Source: an uncultured bacterium (GTDB taxonomy: Bacteria; Cyanobacteriota; Vampirovibrionia; Gastranaerophilales; Gastranaerophilaceae). From it: DNA of 64,000 nucleotides. This document shows, in pieces, positions 52,498-56,513 of this stretch. Within the stretch, counting starts at the first letter, position 1, and every line of letters begins with the position of its first letter. The translations under genes and the position numbers were made by a program. Under the pieces are notes generated by a model that was given only the letters and a program-made list of their open reading frames with translations, had not been told where the DNA came from and searched no databases. The stretch lies in contig CASGEL010000014.1 of assembly GCA_949300485.1 (NCBI GenBank), positions 1 to 64,000 on the forward strand, in the 5' to 3' direction.

Positions 52498-53814
52498 CTA
52501 TGCTGTAATTTCTTTTGTCTTATCATCTACAGCTGTTGTTGTAGGTAATGGTACAACAGTTGCTTTGTTTCTATTTTTTACCATATCAGCGGTTACAACA
52601 AATTTCGTAATATTTTCTTTAGTTGGAACATCATACATTACATCCAACATAATTTCTTCTACAATGGAACGTAATGCCCTGGCTCCTGTCTTACGCTTAA
52701 TAGCTTCTTTTGCTATCAGTTCAACCGCTTCCGGTTCAAATTCAAGATCCACACCGTCCATTTTTAACAATGCTTGATACTGTTTTAATACGGCATTCTT
52801 AGGTTCGGTTAAAATCATTTTCAATGTTTTTTCATTCAACTGATCCAAAACGGCATATACAGGAATACGACCGATAAATTCAGGAATCAAACCGAATTTT
52901 AACAAATCTTCAGGCTGCAGTTTCTTTAATAATTTAACAGCATTTGCTTCTTTTTCAGCTTGAGATAAAGGAGCCTTAGCACCGAAACCTACAGAATTGC
53001 CATCACCCGCACGCCTGTCAACAATTTTTTCTAGACCAACAAATGCACCGCCGACAATAAATAATATATTGCTTGTATCAATTTCGATAAATTCCTGATG
53101 CGGATGTTTTCTGCCGCCTTGAGGCGGAACATGAGCAACAGTACCCTCTATCATTTTTAACAGAGCCTGCTGAACACCTTCTCCTGAAACGTCCCTTGTA
53201 ATAGATGTATTCTCGGATTTTCTTGAAATTTTATCAATCTCATCAATATAAATAATGCCTCGTTCTGCTTTTGCAGAATCAAATTCAGCATTTTGATATA
53301 AGCGGAGCAATATATTTTCAACATCATCTCCGACATATCCTGCTTCTGTCAATGTTGTAGCATCAGCAACAGCAAACGGCACATCTAACATTTTTGCCAA
53401 AGTTTGAGCAAGCAAAGTTTTACCTGAACCCGTCGGACCAACAAGCAATATATTAGATTTTTGAATTTCAACAGTATCTTTGTTAGTTTCTTTATTATGC
53501 TTGAGCCTTTTGTAATGGTTATAAACAGCAACAGACAAAACTTTTTTTGCATCGTCTTGACCAACAATATATTGATCTAAATATTCTTTAATTTCATGAG
53601 GTTTTGGAATAGGCTTTTCTGATTTTTCAGAGGTTTCACCCTCTATAGAACCCTCTTTTTCTTTAGCTTCGAAAAATTCTTCATCAAGAATCTCATTACA
53701 AAGCTCAACACACTCATCACAAATATAAACCTCCGGACCGGCAATAAGTTTCTTTACCTGATCTTGAGTTTTACCGCAAAAAGAACATTTTAATTTGTCA
53801 TCATTCTTTGGCAT
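52498..53814 (-). CDS. clpX: ATP-dependent Clp protease ATPase ClpX
   Basis: A 438-residue AAA+ unfoldase that feeds substrates to ClpP. The N-terminal zinc-binding domain has CSFCGKTQ and ICDECVELC. Walker A is VGPTGSGKT, Walker [10 protein letters not shown], and the ClpP-binding loop region and sensor-2 segment ([12 protein letters not shown]) follow. A Glu/Ser-rich linker of about 25 residues after the zinc domain is longer than usual. It is the last gene of tig-clpP-clpX. Confidence 0.97.
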
Positions 53815-53839
53815 TTAAATATCTCCAAATTATAATTAA

Positions 53840-54430
53840 TTATTTTACAATATCTCGGGAAATGACTTTGTCAATCATACCGTACTCTAAAGCTTCCTGA
53901 GGAGTCATAATATAATCTCTGTCAGTATCTTTTTCAATCTTTTTAATAGATTGACCGGTATTTGAAGCCAAAATTTCATTCAAAGATTTTTTAATTCTGA
54001 TGATTTCAGCTGCCTGAATTTCAATATCAGTAGCCTGACCTTGAGCTCCGCCTAAAGGCTGGTGAATTAAAACTCTTGAATGAGGCAAAGCCATTCTCTT
54101 ACCTTTTGTACCTGAAGAAAGCAAAAATGCACCCATAGAAGCAGCCTGACCTAAACAAATTGTAGAAACATCTGCTCTTATATGCTGCATAGTATCATAG
54201 ATTGCAAAACCTGCAGTTACGCTTCCACCAGGGCTGTTAATGTACAACATAATATCTTTTTCTGGATTTTCACTATCTAGTAACAGCAATTGAGCTACAA
54301 CTAAATTTGCAACCATATCATCAATTGCAGTTCCTAAAAAGATAATCCTTTCTCTCAACAATCTTGAAAAGATATCAAAAGATCTTTCCCCTCTGCTTGA
54401 TTGTTCAATAACTACAGGTACAAAACTCAT
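53840..54430 (-). CDS. clpP: ATP-dependent Clp protease proteolytic subunit
   Basis: A 196-residue serine peptidase forming the 14-mer barrel. The catalytic triad is complete: S98 in [12 protein letters not shown]123 in [10 protein letters not shown] and D172 in DTDRDYIM. The start [20 protein letters not shown] is that of housekeeping ClpP1. SD AAGGGA is 8-9 nt from the ATG. It lies 43 bases after tig and 25 before clpX, all on one strand. Confidence 0.97.
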
Positions 54431-54473
54431 GATTTAATTCCCTTTCTTATTTTTATATTATAACTATTATTTT

Positions 54474-55802
54474 CTAAGCTTCAACTGCTTTTTTATCCTG
54501 ACTGATTTCTACATAATCAAATTTATTATTAGAAATCAAATATTCTCTTACCTTATCATTAACAATTTGTTGAGATAATGTAGCTAGGAAGTCAGGATTT
54601 TGACCAAATTGTTTCATTAAATCCTGTACAGATGTTCCGTAAGCTGCTGCAAGTTGATTTATTTTAACCTGAAAATCATTTTGCTCAACTTTAACTTCAG
54701 CTTCTTTTGCTATTTTATCTATAATTAAAGAATTTTTAATCCTTGCTTTTGCATCATCAATTAAAGTTTGATTAAATGTTGCTTCATCGCCTTGAGATTT
54801 CACAAATGTATCCCAGTCAATACCTTGATAAGATAATCTTTGCTGATAATCTGCTTTTAAAGATTCAACCTCTCTATCAATCATACTTTGAGGAATTTCA
54901 ACTGAAGAAGTATCAGCAACATGTTTGAATACAACATTTTCTGCACTTACTTTTCTCAAATTTTCTCTTTGTTTTTCAAGATAATCTTTGATATCAGCTT
55001 TCAATTCATCAACGGTAGAGAATTTTGTTGTCTTTTTAACAAACTCATCAGTCAATTCAGGTAACACTCTCTGCTTAATTTCATTAATCTTAATAGAGAA
55101 AGTTGCTGGCTGGCCTTTTAATTTTTCATCATGATATTCTTCAGGGAATGTTACTTGAATATCAAACTCATCTTTAATATTATGACCAACTAACTGTTCT
55201 GCAAAACCCGGAATAAAATTAGAATTACCTAAATCTAACGCATAACCTTTTGCAGCCCCGCCTTGAATAGGCTCGCCGTTGCAGGTGCCTTCAAAATCAA
55301 ATACAACTGTATCTGTATTATTTGAAGGTCTATCTAAAACCAACTCCATAGAAGAATGTTGTGTTAAAAAGTTATTTAAAGCTTTATCAAATGCATCACT
55401 TGCTTCAGCAGGAATTTCAACTTTCAAATCCAAGTCTTTATAAATACCTAAATTAACTTCAGGTCTTGTTTCTACTTCAAAAGTAACTGTAACATCTTTA
55501 CCTTGTTCAAATTTATAATTTGTAATAGCAGGCTGAGTAATAACATCTAACTTATTGTCATAAATTGCCTGACCTAAATATTTAGGCAGCAACAATTCCA
55601 AAGCTTCTTGTTGAATTCTGTCTACTCCAACATGTCTTTCTATTACAGCCTTTGGAGCTTTTCCTTTTCTAAAACCATCAATGTTAATATGTTGAGAGAT
55701 ACGGGTTACAGCCTGAGAGTATGCTGTTGAAGCTTCTTTTGCAGGTATAACCATATCTATTGTAACTAAATTTTCTTTTCCTTTTGTTAATGTTGTTTTC
55801 AT
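54474..55802 (-). CDS. tig: trigger factor
   Basis: The 442-residue ribosome-associated chaperone and prolyl isomerase. It has an N-terminal ribosome-binding domain (FRKGKAPKAVIERHVG holds the signature), an FKBP-type domain (about 155-240) and a helical C-terminal chaperone domain. The ATG at 55802 follows AAGGA at 7 nt and gives MKTTLTKGKENLVTIDM, the usual start. The longer frame from 55913 adds a hydrophobic stretch with no SD and is wrong. First of tig-clpP-clpX. Confidence 0.96.
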   Translation of the reverse strand: MKTTLTKGKENLVTIDMVIPAKEASTAYSQAVTRISQHINIDGFRKGKAPKAVIERHVGVDRIQQEALELLLPKYLGQAIYDNKLDVITQPAITNYKFEQGKDVTVTFEVETRPEVNLGIYKDLDLKVEIPAEASDAFDKALNNFLTQHSSMELVLDRPSNNTDTVVFDFEGTCNGEPIQGGAAKGYALDLGNSNFIPGFAEQLVGHNIKDEFDIQVTFPEEYHDEKLKGQPATFSIKINEIKQRVLPELTDEFVKKTTKFSTVDELKADIKDYLEKQRENLRKVSAENVVFKHVADTSSVEIPQSMIDREVESLKADYQQRLSYQGIDWDTFVKSQGDEATFNQTLIDDAKARIKNSLIIDKIAKEAEVKVEQNDFQVKINQLAAAYGTSVQDLMKQFGQNPDFLATLSQQIVNDKVREYLISNNKFDYVEISQDKKAVEA

Positions 55803-55927: not shown

Positions 55928-55956
55928 TTGCAAGAAAAATATCTTTATGCTTAAAT
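55928..55956 (+). promoter_or_regulatory. promoter of rpsP
   Basis: TTGCAA, a 17-bp spacer ending TGC, then TTAAAT. The expected start site, about 55963, is exactly where the structured leader begins. Confidence 0.6.
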
Positions 55957-55962
55957 CAGGAT

Positions 55963-56040
55963 AGAGTTCGGGTGGATTCCTCTTTACCCCGACTCAGGTA
56001 AACCGGCAAGCGGCGGTCGGGATGCCGAAAAGTCGAAATT
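55963..56040 (+). promoter_or_regulatory. G+C-rich structured leader of rpsP
   Basis: About 43 of 74 bases are G or C, in a genome where intergenic DNA is about one quarter G+C. GAGTTCGGGT pairs with ACCCCGACTC (one wobble pair, one mismatch) around 12 bases. ACCG..CGGT and CGG-GATG-CCG form further stems, and CGACT can pair with AGTCG near the end. There is no T tract and no ORF. It is probably a cis-acting RNA controlling S16, or another regulatory RNA; I cannot match it to a known riboswitch or ribosomal leader. Confidence 0.55.
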
Positions 56041-56068
56041 TTAAATTAAGAAAAAGAAGGAAATCAGA

Positions 56069-56449
56069 ATGTTAAAAATCAGATTAAAAAGATTGGGTGC
56101 AAAGAAAAACCCTACATACAGAATTATTGTTATCAATTCAACAACAAAAAGAGAAGGCAGACCTATTCAAGAATTAGGTCACTATAATCCAAAAACTAAA
56201 GTTATGAAATTGGATAAGGCAACTGCCTTGGATTGGATTTCAAAAGGTGCACAACCTACAGAAACTGTTGCATACTTAATTAAAAATTGCAACGAAGACG
56301 GCACTTTAAACTATGTTAAAAAAGAAACAGTAAAACTTTCTAAAAAAGCTTTAGCTAAAAAACAAGCTGAAGAAGAAGCTGCAAAAGCTGCAGCTGAAGC
56401 TGCTGCTCAAGAAGCTGAAGCTGCTCCTGCAGAAGAAGCTCAAGCATAG
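56069..56449 (+). CDS. rpsP: ribosomal protein bS16 with Ala/Glu-rich tail
   Basis: A 126-residue small-subunit protein. Residues 1-85 are standard S16 (MLKIRLKRLGAKKNPTYRII, ELGHYNPKTK, ALDWISKGAQPTETV). The last 35 residues are a low-complexity tail of Ala, Glu and Lys, absent from typical S16. SD AAGGA is 7 nt upstream. It is monocistronic here, behind a structured leader and with its own terminator; rimM, trmD and rplS, frequent partners, are missing. Confidence 0.97.
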   Translation: MLKIRLKRLGAKKNPTYRIIVINSTTKREGRPIQELGHYNPKTKVMKLDKATALDWISKGAQPTETVAYLIKNCNEDGTLNYVKKETVKLSKKALAKKQAEEEAAKAAAEAAAQEAEAAPAEEAQA

Positions 56450-56468
56450 TTTTATAACAAACATACTT

Positions 56469-56502
56469 AAAACGGATTCTCAAAAATTGAGAATCCGTTT
56501 TT
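56469..56502. terminator. bidirectional terminator between rpsP and the helicase gene
   Basis: AAAACGGATTCTCAA pairs with TTGAGAATCCGTTTT around AAAA/T; six T residues follow on the plus strand. Convergent genes lie on both sides. Confidence 0.93.
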
Positions 56503-56513
56503 TACATCCTAAA

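Follow-up and report, generated by a model that had tools for sequence, protein, structure and literature searches.

The E. coli leaders of S15 (rpsO) and S4 (alpha operon) are pseudoknots that act at the level of translation. For S16, a leader candidate has been described upstream of rpsP in Flavobacteria, with S16 as the proposed ligand (Eckert and Weinberg 2020, PMC7247131), and as far as we found, this prediction is the sole published S16 leader in the literature searched. According to a 2024 review (PMC10931766), nothing is known about how the rpsP operon of E. coli is controlled. Here, we describe an RNA located upstream of rpsP in Gastranaerophilales, a widespread uncultured gut lineage of non-photosynthetic cyanobacterial relatives, found in a window of 64,000 nt (the whole stretch of DNA analysed). 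We propose, with a probability of about 0.62, that this RNA is the cis-acting 5' leader of a single-gene rpsP transcript, autoregulated by S16, and constitutes a new family of ribosomal protein leaders (r-leaders). Judged by sequence comparison, it is a real and previously undescribed structured RNA family within this known kind.

The leader element comprises 64-74 nt, extending from the predicted transcription start to ~40 nt 5' of rpsP. The first-pass annotation had pointed to ~58% G+C over 74 bases in an AT-rich region, and this was borne out: the G+C content is 58.1% at 55963-56036 (60.9% at 55963-56026) against 32.8% over the whole window, and 58.1% is reached by just 0.05% of all window 74-mers. 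That the element begins at the predicted transcription start also holds, the promoter placing the start at ~55962-55964. As for the several nested stems that had been claimed, stems are indeed predicted, but as two helices lying side by side rather than nested, and the reported end of the element 28 bases before the S16 ATG has to be corrected, since the second helix ends at 56026, 42 nt before this ATG. Scanned against Rfam 15, the whole window gave only a tRNA, and under permissive settings the leader gave a best E value of 4.2, all matches being non-significant and implausible, either eukaryotic or fragmentary. The absence of any hit at the gathering threshold agrees with the earlier statement that the element does not match SRP RNA, c-di-GMP-I, TPP, SAM or known ribosomal leaders.

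The predicted fold consists of two consecutive stem-loops on the plus strand (-28 kcal/mol). Hairpin P1, given by the MFE fold and by covariation, spans positions 55964-55995 (5' strand 55964-55973, 3' strand 55986-55995), and its apical loop AUUCCUCUUU (55976-55985) has a near-invariant UCCUC core that is anti-Shine-Dalgarno-like. Hairpin P2, supported by covariation, spans positions 55997-56026 (5' strand 55997-56007, 3' strand 56016-56026), contains a 2x2 internal loop and carries the apical loop AAGCGGCG (56008-56015), which is invariant across the genus and, elsewhere in the family, retains a CGGC/GGC core. The ligand is presumed to be recognised by the P1 and P2 loops jointly. Compared with dinucleotide shuffles, the fold energy has a z-score of merely -1.5 (12/200 shuffles as good), so that the structure is unproven by folding energy alone and the proof is supplied by covariation. 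By thermodynamics alone, the leader fold is unremarkable, and comparison is the decisive evidence.

Neither of the outcomes named in the first-pass annotation as refuting it was observed: there was no significant Rfam hit, and in relatives the region upstream of rpsP is strongly conserved and covaries strongly. For 62 distinct sequences drawn from eight genera, the covariation score was 0.573 versus 0.250 +/- 0.011 for shuffled alignments (reached in 0/500), and it fell to 0.05-0.16 when the partners were slid by one to three columns. Two-sided changes were observed in 19 of the 20 pairs, counts that are somewhat inflated by the fitting of the alignment to the structure. They are distributed over both helices: in P1, two-sided compensatory changes affect 9/9 pairs, with 85% of cells paired, and in P2 10/11 pairs, with 88% of cells paired. 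At the base of the P2 loop, the closing pair C-G is exchanged for G-C while the loop remains AAGCGGCG. The genus set alone gave 86% of cells paired and a score of 0.456 versus 0.253 +/- 0.014 for shuffled alignments. RNAalifold, applied to an unfitted MAFFT alignment, recovered P1 and P2 as well, with compensation at 12 of 14 pairs. What stands before this r-protein gene is a conserved structured 5' UTR RNA with covariation, as expected of an r-leader.

A DNA search covering 60 relatives found rpsP and its leader throughout the genus. Among 34 distinct genus leaders aligned, the stems vary freely, whereas the two apical loops show little or no variation: the P1 loop reads TTCCTCT or CTCCTCT in 34/34 sequences, and the P2 loop AAGCGGCG is identical in all 34. 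A covariance model detected one copy each in 43 of 46 genus genomes, including 34/34 of those of good quality. At the level of the order, the model matched 103 of 286 genomes, in 14 genera that all belong to one family, and 38 of the 40 distant matches fetched adjoin rpsP, lying directly upstream. Matches in L122 and L127, without rpsP and with borderline scores, were attributed to chance, and a class-level match in G413 is not near the rpsP gene of that genome. With one model match per genome, no second copy of the leader before another gene was found. An exact two-loop pattern searched in all public species genomes occurs at 56 places, 52 of them before rpsP (51 verified upstream and one cut off at the locus end but plainly the same); the remaining four, in Peribacteria, Portibacter, Ignavibacteriae and Fibrobacteres, have no rpsP nearby and were considered as chance matches. 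Chance matches apart, the RNA is confined to r-protein transcripts, as r-leaders are. By their deposited names, the carriers are Candidatus Gastranaerophilales or Melainabacteria, many from rumen and gut.

Within the family, where an S16 homologue is present in 237/241 genomes, TCCTC was found in 137/138 rpsP upstream regions of a first sample. In most of the further genera missed by the model, rpsP is preceded by diverged leaders whose loops contain UCCUC and CGGC/GGC. Both loop motifs occur in order in 142 of 160 distinct rpsP upstream regions, a count that for the weakest genera is a string match and not a proven homologue. On reading the rpsP upstream regions, we found the leader absent in genera g33, g34, g38, g39, g40, g43 and g48. 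In the leaderless clade (L286, L288, L291, L295-L297, L299-L301; genera g33, g34, g38, g40, g43), rpsP starts with GTG, while the leader-bearing genera have ATG; the GTG start may reflect a switch to another means of keeping S16 low.

Several variants were noted in the course of this survey. In genera g18, g20, g23 and g26 (L108, L109, L114-L116, L119-L126, L251-L258, L271-L279), longer P2 stems carry a larger P2 loop, AGCGGCGGCUGCG or GGCGCGGCUGCA, and many leaders of this class have the Shine-Dalgarno (SD) sequence AAUAAGGGAAA. A GUUACA/GUAAC-like string recurs a few nucleotides after P2 and before the SD in many genera (e.g. L108-L126). Outside the family, in L048 and L050 (family f7, also within the order), the region upstream of rpsP contains a hairpin loop AUCCUCUCC followed by UUCG-CGGCAA-CGAA, with equal motif order and AAGGAGAA as SD, and could possibly be a distant homologue of the leader. 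Finally, L189 (JAMPCZ010000111.1), a contig deposited as a Muribaculaceae MAG, carries a Gastranaerophilales rpsP leader and is equal in length (5554) to contig C13 of the genus-mate G014, and the source is probably a mislabelled MAG.

The organization of the transcript is simple. The promoter, as read from the sequence and kept in relatives, consists of TTGCAA (55928-55933), a 17-nt spacer and TTAAAT, ending at 55956 on the plus strand, with an extended -10 element TGcTTAAAT at 55948-55956 (TG at 55948-55949). The same elements occur at equal distance in same-genus rpsP upstream regions, and this promoter, with 8/12 matches, is absent from the list of a strict sigma-70 consensus scan. The sole gene of the transcript is rpsP (56069-56449, plus strand), an ORF encoding the 126-aa ribosomal protein S16. 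It is directly followed by an intrinsic terminator (56469-56506, plus strand, also usable in the other direction) formed by a 15-bp stem-loop of -19 kcal/mol and a T run. The genes flanking rpsP on either side have the opposite orientation; among them, tig-clpP-clpX, identified by eye from translations, lie on the minus strand (window positions 52498-55800), diverge from rpsP and have their intergenic region in common with its promoter. Between 55963 and 56069, no terminator-like site was found on the plus strand. Transcription attenuation was rejected for lack of an intrinsic terminator between leader and rpsP, and control at the level of translation is the likelier one because the leader has no internal terminator. 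A small upstream ORF (ATG at 56022) was also discarded, as it is not conserved among relatives.

How the leader might reach the start site is suggested by the P1 loop, whose sequence is similar to the anti-Shine-Dalgarno end of the 16S rRNA. In duplex predictions, the loop segment UUCCUCUUU (55977-55985) can pair with AAAG-A-AGGAA in the SD region AAAGAAGGAA of rpsP (56053-56062, plus strand) at ~-9 kcal/mol with one bulged A. The geometry would fit an H-type pseudoknot, with a short 5' loop segment, and P2 and the linker spanning P1. Across species, the extensions of loop and SD vary together: loops with CUUUA (UCCUCUUUA) occur 18 times with UAAAGA(GA)AGG SDs versus 0 with UAAG (12 other), and loops with CUUA (UCCUCUUA) 42 times with UAAG(AA)GG versus 3 with UAAAG (10 other). 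On the S16 gene tree, 60 tips are matched, a number reached in 1/2000 simulations of independent evolution (21.8 +/- 13.3), the categories having been set post hoc on these sequences. A category-free test on duplex energy, in which the SDs were shuffled within genera, gave 16/2000, and scrambled loops reached -4.7 versus -7.0 kcal/mol. In the genus of the window alone, this energy test was not significant (325/2000), and complementarity to the P1 loop is equal or higher in the upstream regions of 3 of 44 other window genes. In related families without the leader, the rpsP SD is AAGGAGAA. UCCUC is kept in genera g29 and g36 despite a change of their SD to GGAGA, indicating that the P1 loop is under another constraint too and probably has a second role beyond SD pairing. 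Altogether, these data suggest a pseudoknot between P1 loop and SD that hides the rpsP start site, a proposal that they moderately support without proving it.

Under the proposed mechanism, pairing of the P1 loop with the SD would close the start site. When S16 is in excess over assembling 16S rRNA, free S16 would bind the P2 loop along with the folded P1, and this binding would stabilise the closed state and lower S16's own translation. The leader almost certainly regulates rpsP in cis and probably lets the cell lower S16 production; S16 as the ligand is a prediction that we regard as somewhat better than even. The first-pass annotation had offered a new S16 autoregulatory RNA or an orphan riboswitch, and we prefer the former because the RNA was found upstream of rpsP and of nothing else.

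Other explanations have to be weighed against these data. The position of the hairpins, which begin at the predicted transcription start, and a fold that is modest for the sequence would suit a constitutive role in stabilising the 5' end or enhancing translation, in which the hairpins protect the mRNA and loop/SD pairing sets basal expression without any ligand. However, stability needs no invariant loops, yet the P2 loop never varies in the 34 genus sequences while the stems change freely, and this explanation is hardly probable. The z-score, taken by itself, would even allow a non-functional element, either a chance G+C-rich stretch or inherited junk, but this is refuted by the covariation, as well as by the genus- and family-wide conservation and the invariant loops, and its probability is practically nil. 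An orphan riboswitch, whose two conserved loops would together make the pocket in which a small molecule or an ion binds to tune S16 synthesis, finds an argument in the compact 69-nt structure and in two long invariant loops without mutual Watson-Crick complementarity. Riboswitch classes, however, usually recur before several related metabolic or transport genes, whereas this RNA occurs as one copy per genome and always before a lone ribosomal-protein gene, which makes a riboswitch very unlikely.

The identity of the ligand is a separate question, in which resemblance to rRNA is of interest: r-leaders frequently resemble the rRNA site of their protein, although they need not do so. The home assembly being without 16S, the same-genus 16S of L128 was used as comparator. 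The leader shares just a GCGGC(G) core with its h4 strand, at about chance level, and both AGCGGCGG and UUCCUC are absent from it. Mimicry of rRNA by AGCGGCGG, which we take to resemble the 105-112 region of 16S in many bacteria, was rejected, as the genus 16S reads GTGGCGGACGGG at 105-112. Loop-loop kissing of UUCCUCU with AAGCGGCG was set aside as well, for it would comprise only CC/GG and isolated pairs, has a U-C mismatch that never changes and shows no covariation. The lack of a recognisable mimic of the S16 rRNA site leaves room for a cis-regulatory rpsP leader that responds to another assembly protein (for example S4 or S20, by which S16 binding is guided) or to a more general cue, for instance free ribosomes. 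S16 of E. coli is a secondary 16S binder that needs S4 and is more stable with S20, binding 16S rRNA stably only after both (PMC5591316). This dependence counts against S16 as ligand, and most known leader-binding r-proteins differ in this respect; solo recognition of a small RNA by S16 would be unusual. Nevertheless, a ligand other than S16 is rather unlikely, given the published rule (PMC7247131) that an r-leader's ligand is the product of one of the genes under its control: with rpsP as the only gene downstream, the rule points to S16, and no second copy of the leader precedes another gene. It is likewise unlikely that the RNA is either an orphan riboswitch coupling S16 supply, and hence 30S assembly, to metabolism or a sensor of S4 or S20 instead of S16.

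If true, autoregulation by S16 would make this RNA the second S16 leader, in a lineage unrelated to Flavobacteria, and the first structured r-leader reported for Gastranaerophilales in the literature searched. It also raises a testable question: how could S16, which in E. coli depends on partners on rRNA, alone read a 64-nt pair of mRNA hairpins? Like the leaders of L1, L10, L13, L19, L20, L31, S2, S6:S18 and S15, the present RNA is short, structured, restricted to one lineage and located before an r-protein gene; it differs from them in lacking any Rfam match at the gathering threshold or with an E value below 4. Both it and the Flavobacteria S16 leader are structured, lie directly before rpsP, have S16 as the proposed ligand and are predictions from comparative genomics. 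However, the Flavobacteria leader usually precedes rpsP-rimM, whereas here, in a different phylum, rpsP is a lone gene followed by a terminator of its own; the two are compared at the level of the published description. With the E. coli S15 and S4 leaders, the present leader would have in common the principle that an r-protein stabilises an mRNA pseudoknot at the ribosome-binding site, while protein, sequence and arrangement differ: here, the apical loop would pair with the SD and the second hairpin is the likely docking site.
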